Positions 1 through 12,560 are shown, counted from the stretch's first letter. The stretch: 64,000 nucleotides of DNA from Limisalsivibrio acetivorans (GCF_000421105.1 NZ_ATWF01000001.1:964930-1028929), one strand, 5' to 3'. A program made the numbers and translations. Notes: a model not told the origin generated them from the letters alone.

Positions 1-809
1 TTATAGCGGAGACTGAGGCTGTAGCGGTCCTCTTTTCCTGTGGAGAAGTTTGTTATGATAAGCTCACGGTCGTAGTCCTTACCCTCCTCAACGTTGTATC
101 TGCTGAAGCGGTATATGATGCCGAATTTAGGGTTGCGCAGTGCTGTACGGAAGTTTGCACGGTAGAGGTCGTTCCTGTCTGTGTCGTATTCCGCATCCGC
201 TCCGGCGGTGAGGAGCATCCCTTTGTTGAGGGAAAAGTGCCTTGAAAGCCCTATCCCTGCGAGCTCCTGAACCACATCGTTATCGTCCGTCTCCTCCTTT
301 GTGTAGGAGATGAAACCGTTTGTATCCTTAACACCATTCAGGAAGAGCTTTGCTCCGTACATCCTGTCCCCAGTGTCACGGAAGGTTTCGTTGATGTGCC
401 TTCTATCCGTATCGTAATACTTCGGTGAGCCGGCAAATATTGTTGCACCAAAGTAGTATTCGGTCTTTATCTCAGCCTCAAATCCATCAAGGGTAAGAAG
501 GCTTTCGCCGAAATAGGGGAATCGGCCGAGCTTTAAAGAGACTGCATCCTCGAAGCCTTTATAGTGAAAATAGGCTGAGTATATGTCGCTTCTGTCCTCG
601 TCATCCTCAACGGCGTAGCGCCCGAAGAAGTTGAAATCGAGATACGGCTCTGCAAGCTCTGTGCTATCGAGGCGCAGATAGTTTTCCCATGAGGTTTCAT
701 TCTCATCGCCGCTTTGGAATTCCAGACCTGTGGAATACTCCCCGTTGAAGGTAATTGCATGGGCACTGAGGCTTAGAAGTATAATCAGCGGTATCAGTAT
801 GCGCTTCAT
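1..809 (-). CDS. Outer-membrane beta-barrel (porin) of cytochrome conduit, 3' end outside window
   Basis: The reading frame starts at the ATG at 809 and stays open to the window edge, giving about 269 residues of a longer protein. It begins with a signal peptide (MKRILIPLIILLSLSAHA), followed by alternating polar/aromatic short strands rich in Tyr, Phe, Asp and Arg, as in transmembrane beta-barrels. There is no heme motif. The start overlaps the stop of the upstream lipoprotein cytochrome (TAATG), with an AAGGGGG ribosome site inside that gene, so the two are translationally coupled. In porin-cytochrome complexes of Geobacter and Shewanella a beta-barrel lets outer-membrane cytochromes pass electrons across the membrane. 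I infer that role from position; no specific family was recognised. The C-terminal strand cannot be checked. Confidence 0.75.
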   Translation of the reverse strand, partial: MKRILIPLIILLSLSAHAITFNGEYSTGLEFQSGDENETSWENYLRLDSTELAEPYLDFNFFGRYAVEDDEDRSDIYSAYFHYKGFEDAVSLKLGRFPYFGESLLTLDGFEAEIKTEYYFGATIFAGSPKYYDTDRRHINETFRDTGDRMYGAKLFLNGVKDTNGFISYTKEETDDNDVVQELAGIGLSRHFSLNKGMLLTAGADAEYDTDRNDLYRANFRTALRNPKFGIIYRFSRYNVEEGKDYDRELIITNFSTGKEDRYSLSLRY

Positions 810-2968
810 TATTCAGCCCCCTTGAGATCCGCCAGCGACAGCTCGATGAGTTTTACAGCGTAGTCGAAGTTGTGGTTACCGCCACTGCGGTCGTTCTTTA
901 TGAAGTTGTAGTTGTAAGCCGCTCTGTTAAGGGAGAGAAGTGTTCCACCTTCGACACCTTCCGCCGCATAGTCACCCTTGACTGCGGTGTCTGTTGAAAG
1001 GCCTGCCTCTGTATTAATAGCCACCTTAAGCTCAGCCATCTTCGAGTTGAGCATATCGGTCTGCCCTGCATAGTCTATGTAGCCATCGGCGGTTATCTCA
1101 TCCACGATGATGCTGTGGCAGACATCGTTGCAGTAATCCGCTCTCCCTTCGTAGTCGTCACTGAAGGAGGCGTGGGTGGTGCCTTCGAGGCGTTTCATAT
1201 GGCAGTCGGTACATGTTGTGCCGGACTTTTTGTGGAAGGAGCGCAGGTTGCCAAGATCATCGCCGTACTCGTATCCACCCGTTCCCTCATACATCTCCGC
1301 CTGGGAATTGTGCACGATGTTTCCCACAGCAGGAAGGGTTTCCTCCGTTGCTCTGTGGCATTCGTAGCAGAGTGCGGATGCACCCGCATCAACGGTTTCT
1401 CCTGCCACAGACGTGCTGCCGTAGGCAAGGAGCTGGTGAGGATTATCACTTTCGCCGTGGGGATCGTGGCATGTGTCACAGCTTACCCCTTTGGGCTGTT
1501 CTATATCGGACGGTGCAATGTCCGTGCCGTAGATACCCGCCTTAAACCCTTGGGAAGTATGGCATTCTATACAGCTGTCGTTTTGTGCGGAACCCTCTGC
1601 GAGGTGTGCTTTGTCGTGGGAATCGGAGTATTCAAAGAAGTGCCCCTGCACTTCGTTACCCGTGTCGTGGCACACGAGGCATGCGCCGGAACCTGGAGAA
1701 ACCTCTGGCTCGTGGGTGAGCTCTGCGGAGCCTTCGATATCGGTTTCATAGGTGAATGCAGGACCGTGACACGCTTCGCATGTGACGCCCCTAGTGTGGG
1801 TGTGTGTTGTATTATCCGGCTCGGACCAGTCTGCTATGAGGTCATCGTGGCCGTAGGTGTTCGGGTGGTCATCGAGGGCATCGGCGTTCCTGTCCACAAA
1901 GAAGAAACCAGTGGTGTGACAGCGGTAGCACTCGGGATCGTCCGAACCCGCCACAGCCGCATAAGCCTGCCCATGGGCACTGGCTTCTACGGTGTCCGCA
2001 AGGTTTCTTAGTGTTTGCCTGCCGAAGTCATCGCCAAAGTCATCAACGTTCAGGGTGCCGTCGTGGCATTGACCGTAGCAGAAGGAATCTCCGCTGTGTT
2101 TCGCATAGGAGTAAGAGAGGGCGTGTATCCTCTTATCCTCGCTGTAAACATCACCTGCGGCGTCAACGGCTGTGAGCCTGATGGTGTAAAGACCCTGGGA
2201 TGTTGGGATGAAGGAACAGCTGTCTCCGCTGAGGACCATCTCCGTATAGGAGTTTTCGGGGTATGAAACCAGCTCCCAGTCCTGCAGTGTGTATGAGCTG
2301 TCCATTATATTCAGCACAACCTTCTCTCCGGCCTGAACAGAGGATATTCCCCTGTATCTGTCGGGGGTTATGTTCCCTGCGCCATCGTATAAGCTTTCCC
2401 CGGCCGATGCATAGCCCTCATAGCCGAGGGAGATTATACTCTTCTCCGGTATGCTCACCCTCTCCATACGATAACCCGCAAAGAACTCCATAGGGATATC
2501 TGCTTCAGCCGTGAGTGTGTTCCCGTTCCTCTCGGAATGGTAGGGAACAGGACTGCCGTTCAGGATTCCTGCTATCCCCAGCCTGCTGTAGCTCCCCCCC
2601 TCGTTCTGGAACATCTCCTCACTGTAGGGTATGCTTACCTCGGCATCGGCGAAGGTATTGGTCTGAGTGTCAAAATTGCTGTTAAAGCTTACTACATATC
2701 GATCGGAAACGGCGTTGTAGCCTTTTACGGCGTAGTCAGCTTCGGTCTTTTTGATATAGATTGTGTCCGCATCAAAACTCCCATTGAGGGAGAAGCCCTC
2801 GAATGCTCCGGAACCGGTGTAGCTTAGAGTGCCGTTATCCGGCACGGACACACTGATGACGTTTTCATCCTCCTCCGTTATGGAGGGTTTCAGGTCGTCA
2901 CTCCCTGAACAGGCGGTAAGAATAAGCAGGCCTGCGGCTGTTAATAAACCTTTGTGCAGCAGTTTCAT
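809..2968 (-). CDS. Outer-membrane multiheme c-type cytochrome lipoprotein (7 CXXCH + 2 CX3CH)
   Basis: This 719-residue protein has a lipoprotein signal peptide with lipobox LTAC (Cys20). Residues 30-290 have no heme sites and look beta-rich, including a PKD/Ig-like stretch near 205-285. Residues 297-618 hold seven CXXCH sites (C347, C397, C430, C466, C497, C534, C586) flanked by two expanded CX3CH sites (CYGQCH at 297, CNDVCH at 613). The lipid anchor and adjacency to a beta-barrel fit the surface or outer-membrane cytochrome of a porin-cytochrome conduit, comparable in role to OmcB of Geobacter; sequence homology to OmcB was not tested. The start is the ATG at 2968 with GGAG upstream, 3 bp after the preceding stop. 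The role in electron export is inferred. Confidence 0.85.
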   Translation of the reverse strand: MKLLHKGLLTAAGLLILTACSGSDDLKPSITEEDENVISVSVPDNGTLSYTGSGAFEGFSLNGSFDADTIYIKKTEADYAVKGYNAVSDRYVVSFNSNFDTQTNTFADAEVSIPYSEEMFQNEGGSYSRLGIAGILNGSPVPYHSERNGNTLTAEADIPMEFFAGYRMERVSIPEKSIISLGYEGYASAGESLYDGAGNITPDRYRGISSVQAGEKVVLNIMDSSYTLQDWELVSYPENSYTEMVLSGDSCSFIPTSQGLYTIRLTAVDAAGDVYSEDKRIHALSYSYAKHSGDSFCYGQCHDGTLNVDDFGDDFGRQTLRNLADTVEASAHGQAYAAVAGSDDPECYRCHTTGFFFVDRNADALDDHPNTYGHDDLIADWSEPDNTTHTHTRGVTCEACHGPAFTYETDIEGSAELTHEPEVSPGSGACLVCHDTGNEVQGHFFEYSDSHDKAHLAEGSAQNDSCIECHTSQGFKAGIYGTDIAPSDIEQPKGVSCDTCHDPHGESDNPHQLLAYGSTSVAGETVDAGASALCYECHRATEETLPAVGNIVHNSQAEMYEGTGGYEYGDDLGNLRSFHKKSGTTCTDCHMKRLEGTTHASFSDDYEGRADYCNDVCHSIIVDEITADGYIDYAGQTDMLNSKMAELKVAINTEAGLSTDTAVKGDYAAEGVEGGTLLSLNRAAYNYNFIKNDRSGGNHNFDYAVKLIELSLADLKGAE

Positions 2969-2971
2969 ATT

Positions 2972-3952
2972 CTATTCTCCATCCCCTTTGTGCTGTTCCA
3001 GCAGAAACTCAAGCAGGTAGGGGGTGCTTTCCTCATCGTGGCATTTATTACAGAAGTCTTCCCTGTTGTTTGTTGCTACATCAAGAAGCCCTTCGAAGTC
3101 TGAATAGTGGGTAAGATGACAGTCCGCACAGTCGAGTTCGTTATCCGTTCCGGGTATGGTAACGTTGTCCACCGGGTGAAAGCGTATGTAGCTCTGGGCG
3201 TGGTAGCCGTATTCCGGATCATCGGCGAAGTGGCACTGGGCACAGAGCTCCTCCACAGGGTTGCGCAGATGGGTCTTCTGGGTTGATTTATGGGGGGAGT
3301 GGCATATGGTGCAATACCCCTCCGCTGTGGGCATATGGACAATCTCTGCATTCTTCTTTTCTTTATTAAAGTCTTTATGGCAGTTCAGACAGGTGTCCGC
3401 AAAGGGCTCAACGGGTTTGAGGCTGTTCTCCTTTGTATGACAGGTGAAGCACTTCCCCTCTTTAACCGGTGTATGCACCCATTGCCCCATGAACTTGTCT
3501 CTGTGGCAGTTCACACAGTCGTTTATATTCTGGAAACGGTGACAGCGGCTGCAAATCTCCTCACGTTCAGGGCTTTCATGGAAGGAGCTCAGCTCCTCTG
3601 TCCAGTCACCGATAACCTGCGGTGATGCTACCTTGTTGATCTTAAGAATTTTTTCTGAATCCCCCTGGATTACTCTAATGGTGTTTTCACCCTGGGAGAG
3701 TTTGAGGATACTCATAAGCATGAAGGAACGAGTCTCATTGTCTGAGAAAAAAGGAATCATACGTTTATTGTATTCAACGCCGTTTATGCTTATAACTGCA
3801 TCATCGCCTGAATCGGAGCGGCCGACAACATGGACATCGCTCACAGCTGTGGTTTCACCCTCTCTGGGAAAGAATATCTCAAGCTCAGCAACGGCAGTGG
3901 CAGCTGTGAATGCGGTTATCAACATAGCTGTAATAAGTATGCCAAACCTCAT
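2972..3952 (-). CDS. Periplasmic octaheme c-type cytochrome with N-terminal beta domain
   Basis: This 326-residue protein has a signal peptide ending near AVA. Residues 24-110 resemble a beta-sandwich (Ig-like) domain without cysteines. Eight CXXCH sites follow at C134, C146, C168, C188, C214, C237, C275 and C301, many with a further His or Pro-His two to three residues downstream as in doubled-CXXCH cytochromes. It would sit in the periplasm or be tethered by the beta domain to the outer-membrane complex. Its start overlaps the previous stop as ATGA. Placed directly before the outer-membrane lipoprotein cytochrome, it is a good candidate for the periplasmic-side cytochrome of the porin-cytochrome complex (the OmaB position in Geobacter). 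That assignment is inference from gene order. Confidence 0.85.
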   Translation of the reverse strand: MRFGILITAMLITAFTAATAVAELEIFFPREGETTAVSDVHVVGRSDSGDDAVISINGVEYNKRMIPFFSDNETRSFMLMSILKLSQGENTIRVIQGDSEKILKINKVASPQVIGDWTEELSSFHESPEREEICSRCHRFQNINDCVNCHRDKFMGQWVHTPVKEGKCFTCHTKENSLKPVEPFADTCLNCHKDFNKEKKNAEIVHMPTAEGYCTICHSPHKSTQKTHLRNPVEELCAQCHFADDPEYGYHAQSYIRFHPVDNVTIPGTDNELDCADCHLTHYSDFEGLLDVATNNREDFCNKCHDEESTPYLLEFLLEQHKGDGE

Positions 3953-4758
3953 TTACCCTCCCCTTGCATCTTATTGAGATAGTATTCAAGCCTTTCCTTG
4001 TCCGGATACTCTTCCTTCATAGATTCCAGCATACCAGCACCCCTTTCCGCATCCCCCTGGAGGTATACTGAGATCGCTGTGAAAAACCGGCATTCTACGT
4101 TTGAACTGCAACTATCCAGAACCTTTTCCGCCCTGTCGGGGGCTTTAAGCCGCAGGTAGGTCTGGCCGAGAAGGAGAAGCCCCTTGTCATTAAGCTTGCC
4201 CACCTCGATCTTATCCAGCTCTTCCAGAGCCTTCATCCGCTCACCCTTCTTGGCGAGCATAAGGACAAAATTCATTTTGGGAACTATCCTGCGGAACTGT
4301 TCGCTCTGGAGCGCCTTCTCTCTGGCGTCCTTAAACTCACGGGGGCTAAGACCTCCGCTCAGGTAGCCCAGATGGATCCCTGTCATAAGGGTTATGCTGG
4401 ATGTTATCTCGCCTATAACATCGCCGTCTTTGATGAACAGCGCTCTGGGGAGCTCACCCTGAACATCTTCAGCGTGGAAAAGCTTCCCGCTGAGAACTGC
4501 ATCTTCGAAGATTTCCCTGCTCTCATCCATGGGTGCTGTGTCGATATAAACACAGGGTACATGGGGGTGAGAGGAGCACTCCGAATCGAACTCCGCCAGC
4601 AGGTTGAGGTCGAAGCGCTTGGAGCTATTGAATATGAGCACACCCTTATTCCCCTCAGGCATCGAGTAGTCCCCGAGAAGAGGCTCTGCAGCGGGGAGCT
4701 GTGCAAAAGCCGTCTGGACGGTCATAAGTATAAGGCACAGAAGGGTGGCTAGTCTCAC
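3949..4758 (-). CDS. Periplasmic thioredoxin-like/TPR protein of cytochrome operon
   Basis: This 269-residue protein has a signal peptide ending QTAFA. Residues 25-125 read like a thioredoxin-type fold (LIFNSS, then VPCVYIDT, then RALFIKDGDVIGEI) but lack a CXXC active site. Residues 150-265 contain helical TPR-like repeats (LDKIEVGKLNDKGLLLLGQTYLRL and following). The protein has no CXXCH. The start is GTG at 4758, overlapping the stop of the 28-heme cytochrome as GTGA, with AGGAGGAG upstream. Possible roles are assembly or docking of cytochromes, or handling apocytochrome thiols; none is shown by the sequence. I do not recognise a named family. Confidence 0.7.
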   Translation of the reverse strand: MRLATLLCLILMTVQTAFAQLPAAEPLLGDYSMPEGNKGVLIFNSSKRFDLNLLAEFDSECSSHPHVPCVYIDTAPMDESREIFEDAVLSGKLFHAEDVQGELPRALFIKDGDVIGEITSSITLMTGIHLGYLSGGLSPREFKDAREKALQSEQFRRIVPKMNFVLMLAKKGERMKALEELDKIEVGKLNDKGLLLLGQTYLRLKAPDRAEKVLDSCSSNVECRFFTAISVYLQGDAERGAGMLESMKEEYPDKERLEYYLNKMQGEGK

Positions 4759-7700
4759 TTCTTCTCCTCCTTAAGCTTCTGCAGGTTCTTCTGAATTATC
4801 AGCATATTCTGCAACACTTCCCTTTCCAGAAGCTTCTTGTTGCGCTCCTTACGGTATTTTTCGTCGTGGTATTTATTGAACAGCTCCTCGGATCGCTCAC
4901 CATGGCATATGCCGCAGAAGTTATCCCTCGTTTCCTGAATGAGGAAGCTGTTCTTATGGTCGCCGTCGATGTTTCCGGGGTATGTACCCTTATCCTGCTC
5001 GTTCCACACATGGGGGTTGTGGCAGGTCTGGCACGTTATACTCCCGTTTACGGACTTCTCGCCCATGTCGTCATACAGCCAGTCCTTAATCATAACCTTG
5101 AAGGGGAATATCTTGAAGATACTGCTGTGTTCCGCAATCTCGGGAATCTTCTTCTCGCCGAGTCCGTTTCTGTTGTGGCAGTCGGTGCAAATCCTTTCGG
5201 CGAAGGGCTTGTCTTCATCCACTTCAAAGGGCCACATGAGCTTTGTATTTTCATTGAAGTTGTGGGGCTTGTGGCATACGTAGCATGCATTCTGCTCGGC
5301 GAGTTTAGCGGTTTTTTCATCGATATACTCGATCCTCGCCATGTTGTGCTCGCTGAATGCCGAATCCTTCTGGTCCGCATGGCAGGTGAAGCAGAGGTTT
5401 TCGTCACCGCTCTCCCTGAGCATGCCTCTATCCGCTGAATGGGGCTCGTGGCACGTGGAGCATACAATCTTGCCGTTCTGGAGGAAGAGGTCGTGTTCCG
5501 ATGCCTTCTCATCCTCTATGTTCATCTTATGGCTTGTATTTATCGCTGTCTCGGAGGCTGTTTCGCCCTCCGTATGACAGCTCTTGCAGATCTTGTCGAA
5601 GTCTTCACCGTACTTCTTATCGAAGAGGTAGTAACCGCTGTTGTGAACGCTGTGGCATGCGCCGCATGTGTTCTGCTCAGCCAGAATCTCTTCATAACCG
5701 GCCTTCTTCTCGTACTTCTCGGGGTTATGTTTAGTTTCGGCGAAGTCCTTCATATCCTTGTGGCAGGCTATACAGGGGTTCTTCTCCTGCAGGAGCTTAT
5801 CCTCAAGGAAGCTGTTGCGGAAATCACCCTCGTCACCCTTTGCGGGGCCGTTCTTGTGGACGTTATGGCAGGTTCCGCAGTCGAGGCGGTATTCACCCTC
5901 ATGTTCGGTTAGCATATCCTCATAGCCTTCGGGATGTTCGATTACTCCGGTGGTGTGTCCGCCGGAAATGATCTTCTTCTTGCCGCTTCCATCCTCTCTG
6001 TGGCAGACATTGCAGTAATCCTTGTCCTCTTTATATGTGTACTTGATGGACATGATGTACTTCTCCGTCTCCGCCTTATGCACTGCGTGGCAGGACTGGC
6101 AGGCGGGATCGGTCTTCTTCTCTCTTATATCGTGGTCTGTGCCTGCAACATCCTTCTGGTTCTCGTGGCATGCGGAGCAGAAGCTGTCGAAATCGGAGTA
6201 TTCACCGCGCAGGAAATCACGGTCGATGGTTTCCTTCTTTGAGGGGGTGTGCGGGTTGTGACAGCTGATACAGGTGAACTTTCCATCCTCGTTAAGCTTG
6301 AACGCCTCGGGGAGTTTATCCTCGGGCACTACATCTGCAGGGTGGGAGTGCTCGCCTATGAGCATCTTCTCTGCGCTTCCCCCCTCTCTGTGGCAGTCGA
6401 GGCATCCATCATCCTCTTTTTTCACGAGCAGACGCTTGTTTGTGCTGTTATGCACCTGATGGCAGGAGAGACAGCTCTTATCAAGCTCCTTGCTTCCGTG
6501 GAGGGTCTTCTCTATCATCCTCTGCTCTTTGTGGCAGGTTATGCAGAGTTCGCCGTTCTTAGTATCCTGACGGAGGAAGTTTTTCTCTTTCGAATGCACA
6601 TCGTGGCATGTGGAGCAGTTTATATCCTTCTCCATGCTGTCCTTAGCAAGGATAGTGGAAAGGAATCTGTCCAGCAGACCGAAGATGGGGAGATCGCCGT
6701 AGTCTTTATCCTGCTTATCCTTTATCTCATCACCAATGGGGTGGTGGAACATTCTGCTGTTGAAGTATGTATCATCCGCAAGGTTTTGGTCGCTATGACA
6801 GCTCAGGCACGCCTTTGTGAGCATATCTTCATCGCCGGCGGGGAGCTCCATTGACCAGCCGTGGGGGCCGTGACAGCTTTCGCAAACACCCTTCTCTGCG
6901 GCGGTTTTGCCATCCTTGGTGCGGAAGTTTTTGATCTTCTCCATATTATGGGGGGTATCCAGAACCTTCTCCTGCTCGCTGTGGCATTCGAGGCATATGG
7001 TCTTGTCCGCACCCTTCTTTATGAGAAGGTTATCCGTTTTACCCTTGTGGGCAGAATGGCAGGTTGAGCATGTGAGGTTATGCTGTTCGCCGTATACGCC
7101 GCCCAACTTCTTTATCTCGTATACCTTTGCGGGGTCATCGTGTTTGACATTGACCGGATGCGTGAGGACGCCTTTTACGTACTCGGTGTCCTTGTATCTT
7201 ATCTTATCCTCATGGCAGACTGCGCATACTGCGGAGTTACCGAGTTTCTCGATAAGTATCTTCTCGCCGCCGGGGGAGTGGTTTGCGTGACAGCTTTCGC
7301 AGATAAGTTCGCCGTTTTTACCCATCCTTCCGCCGGTTTTCTCAAGCATTGACCTGATGGCGGCTTCGTTCTCCTCCGGCTTCTTCATGGAGTGGTTACC
7401 CGATTTCTTTGTCTGGTCCTCGTGGCAAGCCTTACAGAGCTCTGAATTAGGGTTCTCCATCCTCAAAAAGAGGCTTGTATTTATATCTTCACCCGTAGGA
7501 TCCTCTGTGGCGTGGGGTGTGTGGCATGTACGGCAGTTTAGCTTGCCGTCATCAAGGGGGAGCCTCTCGGGGATGTTCATGTGCTCGGGGATCTTCTCCG
7601 CAAGCTTATGCATATCGCCGGACCATACCTTGACACGGCTGTCCTCAACTGTACCGTTATGACAGCTGAAGCACATCTTATCGGCGGCGACCAGCTTCTC

Positions 7701-7868
7701 CTTCTGATAGTCTACAAGCTCGGTCCCTTTGAGGTCATACAGGAATTCGGGCATCCATTCGTAGTGACAGACTGCGCATTCCTTCGAGGAATCGGGCTTG
7801 GAGGCGGAGAATGCCGCCGTTGTGAATATAATTGTAATTATTGATAATAATACAAATACACGTTTCAT
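4755..7868 (-). CDS. Giant 28-heme periplasmic c-type cytochrome (doubled-CXXCH type)
   Basis: This 1037-residue protein has a signal peptide (cleavage near AFSA) and 28 canonical CXXCH sites, from C31 to C985, with no other domain. The sites alternate between CXXCH followed by xPH/xxH and CXXCH followed by E/D-Q, so about 14 diheme modules of roughly 70 residues are stacked in tandem, as in the doubled-CXXCH (cytochrome c3/NapC-like) families. The C-terminal 40 residues are heme-free, very basic and helical. It is soluble and exported, so a long heme wire spanning the periplasm between inner- and outer-membrane partners is the natural reading. The start ATG at 7868 overlaps the previous stop (TAATG) with a strong GGAGGTGA site. 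The wire role is inferred; the heme count is read directly. Confidence 0.92.
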   Translation of the reverse strand: MKRVFVLLSIITIIFTTAAFSASKPDSSKECAVCHYEWMPEFLYDLKGTELVDYQKEKLVAADKMCFSCHNGTVEDSRVKVWSGDMHKLAEKIPEHMNIPERLPLDDGKLNCRTCHTPHATEDPTGEDINTSLFLRMENPNSELCKACHEDQTKKSGNHSMKKPEENEAAIRSMLEKTGGRMGKNGELICESCHANHSPGGEKILIEKLGNSAVCAVCHEDKIRYKDTEYVKGVLTHPVNVKHDDPAKVYEIKKLGGVYGEQHNLTCSTCHSAHKGKTDNLLIKKGADKTICLECHSEQEKVLDTPHNMEKIKNFRTKDGKTAAEKGVCESCHGPHGWSMELPAGDEDMLTKACLSCHSDQNLADDTYFNSRMFHHPIGDEIKDKQDKDYGDLPIFGLLDRFLSTILAKDSMEKDINCSTCHDVHSKEKNFLRQDTKNGELCITCHKEQRMIEKTLHGSKELDKSCLSCHQVHNSTNKRLLVKKEDDGCLDCHREGGSAEKMLIGEHSHPADVVPEDKLPEAFKLNEDGKFTCISCHNPHTPSKKETIDRDFLRGEYSDFDSFCSACHENQKDVAGTDHDIREKKTDPACQSCHAVHKAETEKYIMSIKYTYKEDKDYCNVCHREDGSGKKKIISGGHTTGVIEHPEGYEDMLTEHEGEYRLDCGTCHNVHKNGPAKGDEGDFRNSFLEDKLLQEKNPCIACHKDMKDFAETKHNPEKYEKKAGYEEILAEQNTCGACHSVHNSGYYLFDKKYGEDFDKICKSCHTEGETASETAINTSHKMNIEDEKASEHDLFLQNGKIVCSTCHEPHSADRGMLRESGDENLCFTCHADQKDSAFSEHNMARIEYIDEKTAKLAEQNACYVCHKPHNFNENTKLMWPFEVDEDKPFAERICTDCHNRNGLGEKKIPEIAEHSSIFKIFPFKVMIKDWLYDDMGEKSVNGSITCQTCHNPHVWNEQDKGTYPGNIDGDHKNSFLIQETRDNFCGICHGERSEELFNKYHDEKYRKERNKKLLEREVLQNMLIIQKNLQKLKEEKK

Positions 7869-8719
7869 TATTTCACCTCCAGATGGAAGAGGTGAACCTT
7901 CTTCTCATAGGGATCCACAACCGCAAGGCTGTTACCCTTTATCCTAATATGTGTCGGGGAGCCGAATTCGAGACGGTTTCCTGAAGAATCCTTCAATACA
8001 CCTGCAAAGTCCGCATCCTCATCGAAGTACTGGATCACACCCGTAAATCCGTCCGCAACGAAAAGATTGTTTCCTTGCAGAGCTATACCCGTTGGGCGGT
8101 AGAATTCACCCGCTTTTATCCCCCAGCTCCCTACGAACTCGTAGAACCTGAGATCCGCAGTGATCTTCTGCACACGGGTGTTGATGACCTCGGATACGTG
8201 GAGAAGCCCCTTCTTATCGAAGGCCGCGGAGTAGGGATACCAGAAATTGAGCCTGTCCCTTCCGTATTTTCCGAGGCTCTTGACCACCTCACCGGTGGAG
8301 AGATTAAACTGGATAAGGCTGTGGTTGTCATTATCCGGAACGTACACCGAGCCCTCGTATGGGGCGGCATCGGTGGGGTCAAACTTCTCACCTGCGGTGT
8401 AGCTGGCAATCGTGTTGAGACTGCTGTTAAGAATCTCAAGTGATTCATCCGCACAGAGCATATAGAAATCACCCTGCCTTACTAGGCAGTTCCCCCCCCT
8501 TTCAAGGGTGGCTTTCTGCTCTTTGCCGTTATCTGAATATACGGTGTATGAGCCGTCGAAGGCATCATAAACACCGAGACCGTTGCTCTCGAAAACGGCA
8601 TCGGCGGGGGCACTCTTCTCCCCAAGCTCTATGGTTTTTATGAGCTTTGCGGAGTAGTCCGCCGCATAGGTGCTTAGTGCGAAAAGTAAAGCCGCTGCCG
8701 TCAGTACTGTTTTTCTCAC
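7868..8719 (-). CDS. Exported NHL-repeat beta-propeller protein
   Basis: I start this at GTG 8719 (MRKTVLTAAALLFALSTYA), because an AAAGGTGA ribosome site lies 6 nt upstream and the GTG falls one base after the preceding stop. A TTG at 8740 would add seven residues inside the upstream gene. The protein is about 283 residues with a signal peptide and repeated blades of the NHL type (YVPDNDNHSLIQFN, GLLHVSEVINTRVQKI, NLFVADGFTGVIQYF). Such six-bladed propellers are usually protein-binding scaffolds. It has no heme motif. Position between the membrane triheme cytochrome and the 28-heme cytochrome suggests it organises the periplasmic electron path; this is inference. Confidence 0.82.
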   Translation of the reverse strand: MRKTVLTAAALLFALSTYAADYSAKLIKTIELGEKSAPADAVFESNGLGVYDAFDGSYTVYSDNGKEQKATLERGGNCLVRQGDFYMLCADESLEILNSSLNTIASYTAGEKFDPTDAAPYEGSVYVPDNDNHSLIQFNLSTGEVVKSLGKYGRDRLNFWYPYSAAFDKKGLLHVSEVINTRVQKITADLRFYEFVGSWGIKAGEFYRPTGIALQGNNLFVADGFTGVIQYFDEDADFAGVLKDSSGNRLEFGSPTHIRIKGNSLAVVDPYEKKVHLFHLEVK

Positions 8720-8720
8720 G

Positions 8721-9554
8721 TTATTCACCTTTGGGTGCAAGGAATCCGGGGATTATAAACTTCTCGTATTTATTGATCATTCCTACAACTTCGTTTCCGA
8801 TGAGCTGGTCTATCCTCCTCTCTGCGTAGCCGAGCTTTTTATATGGGAGGTACGCCTCTTCATACTGTCCTGTGTGGCAGTCCTTGCATGTAACGCTGTT
8901 CTCCAGCTTGCTCATAGGCGCATGAAGCTCATCAAGCATGGAGGACTTCTCATTGCCGGAGAGACTTTCCGCTCCCTGGATCAATTCCGAAGCTGTATCT
9001 CTCATGCTGTCGGAGGAGTAAAGGATATTTGAGCCCGCCTCGTTTTGCACAGGGATGATCTTGTACTCGGGATCGCCGAGGAAGGCCTTTACATCCATAG
9101 ATGTTTTCCGTTCGCCGGTGATCTTGCTGTACCATTCAAAGTTTGCCCTCTGGCCGTTATCGACCTTGATATGGCATGTTTCGCATCCCATGAAGTAGGA
9201 GTGCATATTAAGGAAAGCTCTCGTCTCCTTCTTTGTACTGTGGGGGATATCGCCGTGGCATGATACGCAGAGGTTGTAGCTGTCATTCAGTTTGGCTTCC
9301 TCCAACTCATGGAAGGTGTATTTAGGGTGCGCTTCGGTGAAATTCCCATAACCCGCATCCTGCTTCTGCATATCCGTACCGTGCATCATCGCCTCATACT
9401 GGGCTGCACCCTTAGGTTCAGCGTGATGCTCGCCATGGTCCGCCTTATGCCAAAGGTGCATAACAAGGATGTTCACAAGATAGGCGGAGTAAAGAAGGAT
9501 CACTATACCGATAAGGCTGTATATTATTCTAAGGAATCTGCTTCTTCTGCTCAT
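8721..9554 (-). CDS. Membrane-anchored triheme c-type cytochrome
   Basis: This 277-residue protein has one N-terminal membrane helix (residues 10-32), preceded by an arginine-rich stretch, that remains as an anchor. Three CXXCH sites follow at C96, C124 and C223. The periplasmic part also has His-rich stretches (HLWHKADHGEHH) and several Met residues. The topology is that of quinol-oxidising NapC/NrfH-like anchors, though only three hemes are present and no clear NapC signature is seen. The start overlaps the cytochrome b gene (ATGA). It probably receives electrons from the b-type cytochrome upstream and passes them to the periplasmic cytochromes downstream. That direction is inferred from operon order. 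Confidence 0.82.
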   Translation of the reverse strand: MSRRSRFLRIIYSLIGIVILLYSAYLVNILVMHLWHKADHGEHHAEPKGAAQYEAMMHGTDMQKQDAGYGNFTEAHPKYTFHELEEAKLNDSYNLCVSCHGDIPHSTKKETRAFLNMHSYFMGCETCHIKVDNGQRANFEWYSKITGERKTSMDVKAFLGDPEYKIIPVQNEAGSNILYSSDSMRDTASELIQGAESLSGNEKSSMLDELHAPMSKLENSVTCKDCHTGQYEEAYLPYKKLGYAERRIDQLIGNEVVGMINKYEKFIIPGFLAPKGE

Positions 9555-10447
9555 TCGTCACTCCCGAACTGCTTGCTCTTGAGAAACTCTATCTGATCAC
9601 GCACCATCTTGACTTTCTGTTCATTGGTGAACTGCTCCGCCTCCTTCATCTTGTCCAGATCCACTATCTGGGATGGATCTTTTTCAGCTATACAGTTCAT
9701 CCGCTCCCACTCGAGGTAGTACTCATGCTTCATGATATGCTCCGGCAGGTATCCGGTTATGAAGAGGGGGGAAGCGGGGAATTTGTCGTAGTTTACGTGG
9801 GCGTTGTACATGTGCCATACGAAGATAACGCTCACTGCGAGCATAGCCTCGTCCGAGTGGGCGATGTAGCCGATATTGACAGCCCAGCCGGGGAGGAACA
9901 TCGCCGTCTCCTCGGGGAACCAGAGGAAAAGACCTGTGAGCCCGAGTACGGGAATACCCCAGAAAACCGCCCAGTAGTCAAACTTCTCTCTCCAGTAAAA
10001 CCGCTCGTGCTTCGGTCTTTGGTCCGTAATGAAGAGGGCGAACTTTACGAAGTCAAGGAAGTCTTTGATATCCTTGAGCCTCGGGAAGGTCGGTGAGTAG
10101 TATATGAATTGGATCATCTCCTTTATGGAGAAGTTTGATGTCTTCTTTGCTGGTATAATGTACAGCCTGAAAAGGTTCTTAAAGAGGTAGTACCAGTGGT
10201 AGAAGAACAGGCCGACCATAATCACACCGGCTACCCTGTGAATAAGCCTTGTGCTTGCAAGTCCGCCGAAGAGGCGGATTGTTGGCTCCGCCCAGTCGTA
10301 ATAGTGAAACTTGAGCGGGAAGCCTGTGAAAACCAGAAGAAGGAATGTGGTCATAAGTATATAGTGCTGGTTCTTCTGGGAAACCGTGAGCTTCCTGTAA
10401 TGACGCTCACCATTCTTTATCTTTATCATCGGGTATCTTCTTGTCAT
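9551..10447 (-). CDS. Inner-membrane b-type cytochrome (FdnI/HydC-like)
   Basis: This 298-residue integral membrane protein has about four hydrophobic helices and histidines placed as in the di-heme b subunits of formate dehydrogenase and Ni-Fe hydrogenase: H28, H70, H84, H197, H212 and H217. Loops carry RPKHERFYWREKFDYWA and the C-terminal 60 residues are charged and cytoplasmic. Such subunits exchange electrons with the quinone pool. It overlaps the upstream octaheme gene by ATGA with a GGGGG site upstream. In Geobacter, CbcL is a fusion of a multiheme c domain with this type of b domain, and CbcBA is a two-gene form; the octaheme/cytochrome b pair here looks like the same idea encoded as two genes. 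Confidence 0.85.
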   Translation of the reverse strand: MTRRYPMIKIKNGERHYRKLTVSQKNQHYILMTTFLLLVFTGFPLKFHYYDWAEPTIRLFGGLASTRLIHRVAGVIMVGLFFYHWYYLFKNLFRLYIIPAKKTSNFSIKEMIQFIYYSPTFPRLKDIKDFLDFVKFALFITDQRPKHERFYWREKFDYWAVFWGIPVLGLTGLFLWFPEETAMFLPGWAVNIGYIAHSDEAMLAVSVIFVWHMYNAHVNYDKFPASPLFITGYLPEHIMKHEYYLEWERMNCIAEKDPSQIVDLDKMKEAEQFTNEQKVKMVRDQIEFLKSKQFGSDE

Positions 10448-11505
10448 TTTGAATCCCCCTTCTGCTTGCCTTTGCGTCTCAGGCTGAAGTTCGGGAAGAT
10501 CTCCCTTATAAGTTCAAGTATGAGCAGACCCACGAGCGGGAAGAATACGCCGAGGGTAAGCACAGTGAAGGCAAGAGCAACGTAAAACTCGATGGGGTAC
10601 AGGTCCTTGTCTATCGCAACGTGCATCCGTATCTCGCCGAAGCCCTTTTTTGCTGTGGGGTGGCATCTTGGGTCCTGGCAGGTCTTGTACCGCTCTCCTT
10701 CGAAGATGGCACTTTCGGGGTTCTTCTGGCTCATAATGCGGTGGACCGAATCGCCGGTTTTAACGTGGCAGTCGATACATGTGGGTGCGTTCTCGAAGCC
10801 GAAGCCGATGGCCTTGCCGTGGAATGTGTCGAGATAGGTTCCTGCGGCATTCTTGAGCTTGTGTTTCTCCGCCATCTCCTGTTTGGAATGGCACTCGCTA
10901 CACGTTGCAATCGACGATTCATCGTGCTTCAGGTTTTTCATCCTATGGCTTACATGGTTGAAGAAGTATTTATAGTCTATGTTGTCTTCGTGGCAGGTCT
11001 CGCATTTGTTGTAGATCTCTGAAGGGTCCCTCGAATCGCTTATCTCATAAACTTCATCGGGGTTAAACCGGAAAACAGGGTTGTTGTGGCAGTCCTTGCA
11101 GTCTGGAAAATCTTCAACAATCTTAGCCCGGACATTGGGGTTCTCCGGGTTATGGATACTCTCCATAAGTGCCTTTTCCGCCTGCTTGTGGGAGAATGGC
11201 TTGGCCGAGCCCGCCTCAGTGATGTGACACTCTGTGGTACAGTTTACAGGTTCGGCTTCCTTGTGCGGTATCTCTTTGATATCTGTGTGACATCCGGAAC
11301 ATTTGACCCTGGTATGAACCGAGTGGTCGTATCTTTCGGAGTTCACATAGAAGACACGCAGTTCCCCTTCGTCACTAACCCTGCTGAGCCCGGGGTATTT
11401 GTGGCACATCATGCAGTTTTCGTCATCGGGGGTGAAAGTTTGGGCCCCTGCGGTAACTGCTGATATAAGGAGAGCCGTAATGAATAATGATTTAATAAAC
11501 CTCAT
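10444..11505 (-). CDS. Octaheme c-type cytochrome with C-terminal membrane anchor (6 CXXCH + CX3CH + CX4CH)
   Basis: First gene of the operon. I choose ATG at 11505, which has GGAG six bases upstream; an in-frame TTG at 11517 lies too close to that site. The protein has a signal peptide (MRFIKSLFITALLISAVTAGA), six CXXCH sites (CMMCH, CSGCH, CKDCH, CETCH, CSECH, CIDCH), one CX3CH (CTTECH) and one CX4CH (CQDPRCH), then one hydrophobic helix near residues 305-335 and a basic tail. It is therefore anchored in the inner membrane with hemes in the periplasm. It is coupled to cytochrome b. Together they probably form a quinol oxidase module feeding the periplasmic cytochromes. Expanded heme motifs may need attention from the heme lyase. 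Confidence 0.87.
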   Translation of the reverse strand: MRFIKSLFITALLISAVTAGAQTFTPDDENCMMCHKYPGLSRVSDEGELRVFYVNSERYDHSVHTRVKCSGCHTDIKEIPHKEAEPVNCTTECHITEAGSAKPFSHKQAEKALMESIHNPENPNVRAKIVEDFPDCKDCHNNPVFRFNPDEVYEISDSRDPSEIYNKCETCHEDNIDYKYFFNHVSHRMKNLKHDESSIATCSECHSKQEMAEKHKLKNAAGTYLDTFHGKAIGFGFENAPTCIDCHVKTGDSVHRIMSQKNPESAIFEGERYKTCQDPRCHPTAKKGFGEIRMHVAIDKDLYPIEFYVALAFTVLTLGVFFPLVGLLILELIREIFPNFSLRRKGKQKGDSK

Positions 11506-11517
11506 CTGCCGCTCCAA

Positions 11518-11956
11518 TGTATAAAATAAAAAGCTTCTAAGTTAATTACTATTTTCCTAATAGGTTAATATGTAATATTTGCAATGTCAACGGAAAGCGA
11601 CTGAAAATTCCCTGTATGACTAGATATATAGAAAGTTATATATTCCTAGTACTGTTAAATTATACAAAATAACTGTGTTATAATATTAATGCACCTATGA
11701 TATTTATGAATCATGTATAAATCATATAACTGTTTAGAGTTCATGATATTAATTTAGTTGCACACATAAACTGCCCTGAGCAGGGGTTTGGTGGAGGCCC
11801 GCCTGACATTTCAACACTCTTGCCTAGTTAATTAAAGATGAAATGCGATTACACAGTTCCGAATCGTTATCTACATAAAAATACCCATTTATTAACCTGG
11901 TTATTTTTTATCCGCGATGTTTTAATAGGATCAAACAACAGTATGGAGGTATTACT
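11518..11956. other. AT-rich divergent intergenic region
   Basis: About 440 bp separate the cytochrome operon from the DUF3795 gene. It is strongly AT-rich between 11520 and 11760. An imperfect dyad (ctagatatata / tatatattcctag) lies near 11620-11652. A GC-rich island near 11771-11805 has the palindrome CCCTGAGCAGGG and AGGCCCGCCT; its loops are too short for a terminator and I recognise no riboswitch. No convincing small gene is seen. Confidence 0.5.
11562..11590 (-). promoter_or_regulatory. Candidate promoter of cytochrome operon
   Basis: A perfect -35 hexamer TTGACA (11585-11590) is followed after 17 bp by TAACCT (11562-11567), a weak -10 that keeps the A and T at the conserved second and last positions. 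This would give a leader of about 50 nt before the ATG at 11505. The flanking sequence is very AT-rich and other -10-like strings occur, so the call is tentative. Confidence 0.4.
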
Positions 11957-12391: not shown

Positions 12392-12435
12392 TTTAATCTA
12401 TGGAATTTTCATGGCTGATTTAATCTATGGAATTT
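12388..12435. repeat. 21-bp direct repeat, two copies, 27-bp period
   Basis: The string ctgatttaatctatggaattt occurs at 12388-12408 and exactly again at 12415-12435, separated by six bases. The first copy includes the stop codon of the DUF3795 gene. The second runs into an 11-bp inverted repeat. Confidence 0.9.
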
Positions 12436-12524
12436 CCCATCCATGGAAATTCCATTGTTGTTCGAGCGGGGAAACCCCGCTCTCTCGCACTTCCGGCTAC
12501 GTGAATTGAGCAAAGCCCAATTCA
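12427..12524. repeat. Chain of three palindromic stem-loops
   Basis: Three perfect inverted repeats follow each other. ATGGAATTTCC (12427-12437) pairs with 12445-12455 over a 7-nt loop. GAGCGGGG (12464-12471) pairs with CCCCGCTC (12475-12482) over AAA. TGAATTG (12502-12508) pairs with CAATTCA (12518-12524). A fourth hairpin, listed as a terminator, follows. The composition (GC-rich hairpins with AT-rich borders) resembles an interspersed palindromic element or MITE remnant, but only one copy is visible here. Confidence 0.65.
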
Positions 12525-12535
12525 ACTACGCCTTC

Positions 12536-12560
12536 AGGGCTTCCATCCTTGGAAGCCTTT
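12536..12560 (+). terminator. Rho-independent terminator after DUF3795 gene
   Basis: GGCTTCCA (12538-12545) pairs perfectly with TGGAAGCC (12550-12557) over TCCT and is followed by TTTT. It is the fourth hairpin in the palindrome chain. Confidence 0.6.

Follow-up and report, generated by a model that had tools for sequence, protein, structure and literature searches.

Does a single locus in a member of the Deferribacterota encode a complete route for electrons between the quinone pool and the outside of the cell? We addressed this question for a stretch of 64,000 nucleotides (the window; G000:C1:964930-1028929) of the 2.97-Mb genome of Limisalsivibrio acetivorans, the left end of which is occupied by genes for multiheme c-type cytochromes. 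The nearest named relatives of this organism are Denitrovibrio, Seleniivibrio and Geovibrio-type genomes (Geovibrionaceae/Denitrovibrionaceae, Deferribacterales, Deferribacterota). These cytochrome genes belong to an operon of 11 genes (A to K) with a total of 71 c-heme motifs, and we consider it likely, judging from the sequences, that its products form an electron conduit across the envelope through which the cell respires extracellular acceptors, for example Fe(III) and Mn(IV) minerals, electrodes or humics.

Nine minus-strand open reading frames (ORFs) run from position 11505 to the left edge of the window, and every junction between them is an overlap or a gap of at most 3 bp. The first-pass annotation had described this coupled nine-gene operon and predicted 56 c-hemes within the window, and our recount agrees on both (8 motifs in A, 3 in C, 28 in E, 8 in G and 9 in H). 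These comprise 52 CXXCH motifs, one CX3CH and one CX4CH in A, and two CX3CH in H. The four non-standard motifs are kept in every aligned homologue and are therefore credible heme sites. The annotation had also taken the gene cut by the window edge to be a beta-barrel and the last member of the operon. Extending the sequence to the left upheld the former, yielding a complete ORF modelled as a barrel, and not the latter, since the operon continues to 2,030 bp beyond window position 1, with two lipoprotein cytochrome genes (J and K) following the barrel. The proposed comparison with related genomes revealed a gene order that is conserved across genera, which excludes chance as an explanation for the operon. 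A search for a sigma-54 promoter upstream of gene A found none, and sigma-70-type sites within the locus were no more numerous than expected by chance.

The heme and axial-histidine patterns are those of electron carriers. The number of further conserved histidines roughly equals that of heme motifs in E (28 motifs, 27 histidines), J (7 and 7), H (9 and 9), A (8 and 9-10), G (8 and 7) and K (8 and 7), suggesting that these cytochromes are electron carriers rather than enzymes. No CXXCK motif occurs in the operon genes of the window; thus, nothing points to a catalytic heme of the nitrite-reductase kind.

Table 1 Genes of the operon (A to K) and gene L downstream of it. Positions are counted from the first letter of the window, and negative positions lie to the left of it.
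Gene	Position	Strand	Product and predicted role
A	10444..11505	(-)	Periplasmic octaheme c-type cytochrome (6 CXXCH, CX3CH, CX4CH) with C-terminal transmembrane helix; putative CbcA-like quinol-oxidase subunit
B	9551..10447	(-)	Cytochrome b membrane subunit of Ni_hydr_CYTB/FdnI type, predicted to oxidise quinol
C	8721..9554	(-)	Triheme c-type cytochrome with N-terminal membrane anchor
D	7868..8719	(-)	Exported NHL-repeat beta-propeller
E	4755..7868	(-)	28-heme periplasmic cytochrome, candidate periplasm-spanning wire
F	3949..4758	(-)	Exported protein with C-terminal TPR repeats; N-terminal half thioredoxin-like by eye only
G	2972..3952	(-)	Periplasmic octaheme cytochrome, MtrA/DmsE-like
H	809..2968	(-)	Lipoprotein cytochrome with 9 hemes (7 CXXCH, 2 CX3CH), probable surface cytochrome
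I	1..809, on to -414 outside the window	(-)	Predicted outer-membrane beta-barrel, 407 aa, 22 strands
J	-437 to -1003	(-)	Lipoprotein of 188 aa with 7 hemes; 22-bp gap after I
K	-1017 to -2030	(-)	Lipoprotein of 337 aa with 8 hemes; 13-bp gap after J
L	-2882 to -6322 (L002:13608-17048)	same strand	Lipoprotein of 1,146 aa with 16 hemes, ~850 bp downstream of K

The first two genes display a layout of the Cbc5/CbcBA type, in which a cytochrome b with two b-heme histidine pairs (B) is encoded beside a membrane-anchored multiheme c subunit (A). The product of gene B matched Pfam PF01292 (E 2.9e-11) and had its best PDB match to FdnI (1kqf_C, E 1.3e-13), and its histidines 28, 70, 84, 197 and 212 are invariant across 19 sequences, including some from Chloroflexota. 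The eight motifs of A are invariant in 13 homologues. Versions of A with the C-terminal helix adjoin B in both Deferribacterota and Chloroflexota, and relatives of A with seven hemes adjoin relatives of B in Chloroflexota metagenome-assembled genomes. Because this adjacency extends to Chloroflexota, A and B appear to represent a widespread quinol:cytochrome c module of the CbcA-CbcB type. Plasmid-borne copies of gene B were looked for and none were found. In two other members of the order (L022:301-2280 and L024:295-2385), a B-like cytochrome b is fused to a c domain with 11 or 6 hemes, giving proteins of 660-700 aa that recall CbcL-type fusions.

The next two genes are C and D. The three CXXCH motifs of C are invariant in 14 homologues, together with four other histidines, and the protein has a weak match to octaheme tetrathionate reductase (1sp3). 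Gene D matched the Pfam NHL profile (E 1.2e-5), probably starts at GTG 8719 rather than TTG 8740, and keeps its position in those members of the order that carry the core of the operon. The quinone-side pair that had been proposed is supported by the invariant heme-ligand histidines of B, by its match to FdnI and by the adjacency of A, as is the membrane triheme cytochrome by its motifs and N-terminal anchor.

The largest cytochrome of the operon is the product of gene E. All 11 complete homologues (36-54% identity) have exactly 28 CXXCH motifs, which substantiates the 28-heme protein of the first-pass annotation, and a further 27 histidines are invariant. With ~36 aa per heme, the protein matches MtrA of the Mtr complex best among PDB sequences (6r2q_A, E 4.4e-16). 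The periplasm is 200-250 Å wide. The maximal dimension of MtrA, which has 10 hemes, was estimated at ~100 Å (PMC5566968), and by analogy 28 hemes at the pitch of MtrA could reach most of the way across the periplasm. The product of gene G also had its best PDB match to MtrA (6r2q_A, E 1.6e-14), and its eight motifs and seven other histidines are invariant in 11 homologues. Both proteins matched the decaheme MtrA/DmsE-type profile TIGR03508 (E with 154.6 bits, G with 54.8 bits) below its cut-off of 192.2 bits. A Pfam Cytochrome_C7 search of the host genome revealed no small triheme shuttle resembling PpcA; the smallest match was to an open frame of 142 aa, within which a 132-aa tetraheme ORF lies next to a TAT-type protein. 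This result fits a fixed wire and does not prove it, and tetraheme cytochromes could act as shuttles.

Gene F, which lies between E and G, is the least conserved of the operon set within the family. It had been described as thioredoxin-like with TPR repeats. Profile matches in its C-terminal half support the TPR assignment. The thioredoxin-like look of the N-terminal half found no support from any profile; this half lacks CXXC, and the invariant cysteines are arranged as CX7C.

The outer-membrane side displays a porin-cytochrome layout, with a predicted barrel encoded beside multiheme cytochromes. The completed product of gene I ends in a C-terminal phenylalanine (SIDF). Its AlphaFold2 model, built with eight homologues, predicts a barrel of 22 strands with a mean predicted local distance difference test score (pLDDT) of 79. 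By VIA-align this model was similar to TonB-dependent receptors, which are themselves 22-stranded (Z ~21, 3.6 Å over 335 residues). These receptors dominated the VIA-align matches listed, and the absence of MtrB among those listed excludes nothing; by Foldseek, MtrB (6r2q_B) was recovered at rank 47 with an E of 1.3e-6, weaker than the best matches. A J-like cytochrome adjoins every I-like barrel that we found (25 of 25 loci), and profile comparison supports the homology of the distant I/J pairs tested. Gene J encodes the densest cytochrome of the set, with ~24 residues per heme, and its seven extra histidines are invariant, as are the eight motifs and seven further histidines of K.

Lipoboxes were read in the sequences of H, J and K, which supports their assignment as surface-type lipoprotein cytochromes with predicted exposure. 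In H the lipobox reads LLILTAC, and the nine motifs and nine other histidines are invariant in seven homologues, with ~36-40% identity within the family; the lipoprotein cytochrome proposed at this position is supported by this lipobox and its nine hemes. Gene L probably lies outside the operon transcript. It contains DUF7151 repeats and a weak match to the OmcA/MtrC family, and an L-like gene also comes after J-K in another family (L112), which suggests that L belongs to the conduit.

Divergent I/J-type pairs were also observed, consisting of a barrel of 450-510 aa and a small cytochrome with 5-6 hemes, encoded beside exported molybdopterin or flavin oxidoreductases (L117:1673-6461, C1:8500-20000 of the host genome; L123, L124, L125 and L114). 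Several copies occur per genome in Geovibrio-type, Mucispirillum-type and Denitrovibrio genomes and in the host genome itself. From their sequences and surroundings, these look like a Deferribacterota porin-cytochrome family wiring different extracellular reductases.

Both halves of the operon lie ~10 kb apart in nine of the 12 family genomes. In each of six other family genomes, reading of the locus showed the full A-K order (one genome has a shortened NHL call), and three further genomes have the B and barrel genes ~10 kb apart on one contig or both present. Beyond the family, the A-E core occurs in most families of the order. In one genome (G038), I comes immediately after A-E, and J, a short lipoprotein cytochrome and a 13-heme lipoprotein come next. 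Because F, G and H are missing there, E is the sole large periplasmic multiheme of that cluster. An apparent loss of J from the same genome was rejected, as the gene is present and masked by an ORF on the opposite strand. From the loci compared and the constant pairing of I with J, we conclude that I-J is the constant outer-membrane pair and A-E the constant inner part, with G, F and H variable.

Genome G025 (L108:12596-13930) retains F-K and has lost A-D, along with the initial 17 hemes of E, beside GGDEF-type genes. We rejected this locus as an independent F-K module, as a remnant of E stands where A-D and the front of E were lost. The remnant holds 11 of the 28 hemes and is 93% identical to that of a sister genome, and the locus appears to reflect either natural truncation at the 5' end or faulty assembly. 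A further feature of the surroundings is an intergenic repeat of ~150 bp with inverted-repeat content at window positions 12405-12560, also found at G000:C1:958374-958516 and 957216-957356. It has 57 matches genome-wide with 80-100% identity; copies flank the cytochrome locus on both sides, including a 99% identical one beyond gene L.

We postulate the following route through the envelope, in which the placement of the subunits, their physical connection into complexes, the direction of flow and the acceptor are those that we infer. Cytochrome b B and the membrane-anchored octaheme A, probably together with triheme C, would oxidise menaquinol. Electrons would then pass to the 28-heme E, which may bridge the periplasm wholly or over much of its width; in this family octaheme G would assist. 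Barrel I would hold the 7-heme lipoprotein J as a trans-outer-membrane wire, and lipoproteins H and K, perhaps with the 16-heme L, would hand electrons over outside the cell. The NHL protein D and the TPR protein F may serve as scaffold or assembly factors. A possible, somewhat doubtful extension is that A-B-C, E and I-J-K-H form one continuous, shuttle-free complex of ~70 c-hemes from the inner membrane to the surface, and that I-J is the founding pair of a porin-cytochrome family specific to Deferribacterota, which also connects to exported molybdenum and flavin enzymes.

A conduit to extracellular acceptors would suit the Fe(III) reducers of the order, among which PMC13186404 names Limisalsivibrio acetivorans and Geovibrio ferrireducens. 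Several observations weigh against it. The AlphaFold2 model of E (12 sequences) had a pLDDT of 45 and is unusable for shape, and other members of the order keep A-E without barrel I. According to PMC13186404, Fe(III) reduction has not been shown for Deferribacter desulfuricans, yet the core is present in this species. The full operon occurs in Denitrovibrio acetiphilus, a species in which a test for Fe(III) reduction was not possible (PMC3035293). Because of these two species, the presence of the operon or its core does not by itself predict the Fe(III) phenotype.

Wires of bis-histidine hemes are neutral as to direction, and the conduit could run inward, taking electrons from extracellular donors (minerals, partner cells or a cathode) and delivering them to the quinone pool by way of the barrel and E, to feed autotrophy. 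A CbcBA complex has been proposed to work in reverse in the sulfate-reducing partner of methane oxidisers (PMC10553843), and a reversible tricarboxylic acid cycle for CO2 fixation is commonly encoded in the order (PMC13186404). The known physiology of the relatives is, however, dissimilatory Fe(III)/Mn(IV) reduction and nitrate reduction, and we regard inward flow as improbable. Very improbable, in our view, is a division in which A-G form a quinol-cytochrome relay for periplasmic reductases of nitrogen or sulfur compounds and H-K are a separately acquired outer-membrane module sharing the transcript. Such a division would suit the relatives in Deferribacter, Deferrivibrio and Flexistipes, which keep A-E, and in most cases F and G, without H-K, and the weak resemblance of C to tetrathionate reductase; it is opposed by the barrel and J directly after E in G038, by translational coupling through the whole operon, and by the lack of a catalytic subunit or CXXCK in it. 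That the surface cytochromes are instead the reductase of a specific soluble or particulate compound (e.g., selenium, arsenic or sulfur) rather than of bulk minerals is very unlikely, because, although the family includes Seleniivibrio and sulfur-reducing Geovibrio and sister I/J pairs adjoin exported molybdenum or flavin enzymes, the operon encodes no such enzyme and the conserved histidines of H suffice for six-coordination of all its hemes.

The outward conduit that we favour was compared with known systems. Among the closest is the Deferribacter '19-gene cluster' (DEFDS_0741-60, FHQ18_02900-02990; loci L047-L050), of which the core is a part and which PMC6896113 and PMC13186404 suggest to be a remnant or a candidate metal-reduction system. 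Its genes A-E, the 28-heme one among them, keep the order seen here and are joined by homologues of F and G; the cluster lacks I-, H-, J- and K-type genes and has features of its own, namely a 13-heme cytochrome, a second NHL lipoprotein, a two-component system and tetrahemes. In the families of these loci, the gene I profile found nothing and the gene J profile gave only weak distant matches in two Flexistipes-family genomes. After three tetraheme genes, the cluster also encodes a 794-aa protein without Pfam or NCBIfam match (L049:17209-19593, with equivalents in L047 and L048), which may be an outer-membrane component in place of barrel I.

In the PCC3 clusters of Fe(II)-oxidising bacteria, for which a full-envelope wire was also proposed, a porin and an extracellular multiheme are encoded alongside a periplasmic multiheme with a median of 21 hemes and a membrane protein of putative di-heme-b type (PMC5566968). 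This clustering resembles that of our operon. Unlike it, PCC3 lacks a separate octaheme or triheme anchored in the membrane, its porins are very large, reaching 42 strands, and its inner-membrane protein has two WX3HX13H motifs; these motifs were not found in B, where His70-His84 form an HX13H and His197-His212 an HX14H, with no tryptophan. In Geobacter Cbc5 (cbcEDCBA) and CbcBA, a multiheme c subunit is likewise joined to a cytochrome b that acts on menaquinol, and additional c-type subunits are present (PMC11434368). This likeness is by description; neither a barrel nor a surface cytochrome is described for Cbc5, and gene A has eight hemes. MtrCAB and MtoAB-MtoC share with the operon surface multihemes and a barrel, with a cytochrome embedded in it (in the operon, a predicted placement), along with the sequence resemblance of E and G to MtrA, and some mto operons include the inner-membrane cytochrome MtoC (PMC5566968). 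They differ in that the barrel-side cytochrome J is a small 7-heme lipoprotein rather than a decaheme MtrA, and the best structural matches of the barrel, with its 22 predicted strands, are not MtrB. Finally, the Uet pathway of Tenderiales and Gallionella (PMC10734462) also unites a porin, multihemes and NHL-repeat proteins, with an undecaheme and separate trihemes instead of the 28-heme protein and a peptidylprolyl isomerase instead of the TPR protein.

The first-pass annotation had put the locus forward as a candidate for a distinct system on the grounds that, in Geobacter, inner and outer parts are usually encoded apart. Geobacter is a poor yardstick for a Deferribacterota genome, and inner and outer parts also occur together in PCC3 and in mto operons with MtoC. 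What stands is the gene set with its barrel pair, for which we found no description in the open-licence literature; the accessible parts of PMC6896113 and PMC13186404 describe no barrel pair and no complete version as found in this family. The operon is thus an unusually complete version of a known type of system, the inner half of which was already published as a candidate metal-reduction cluster.

These findings bear on how Deferribacterota reduce Fe(III), a route that PMC6896113 describes as unresolved, searches for Geobacter and Shewanella markers having given little. The operon provides a complete, gene-by-gene candidate pathway, kept in most of one family and, as a core, across most families of the order. 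If E does bridge the periplasm, it would offer a test of full-envelope conduction without mobile periplasmic cytochromes.

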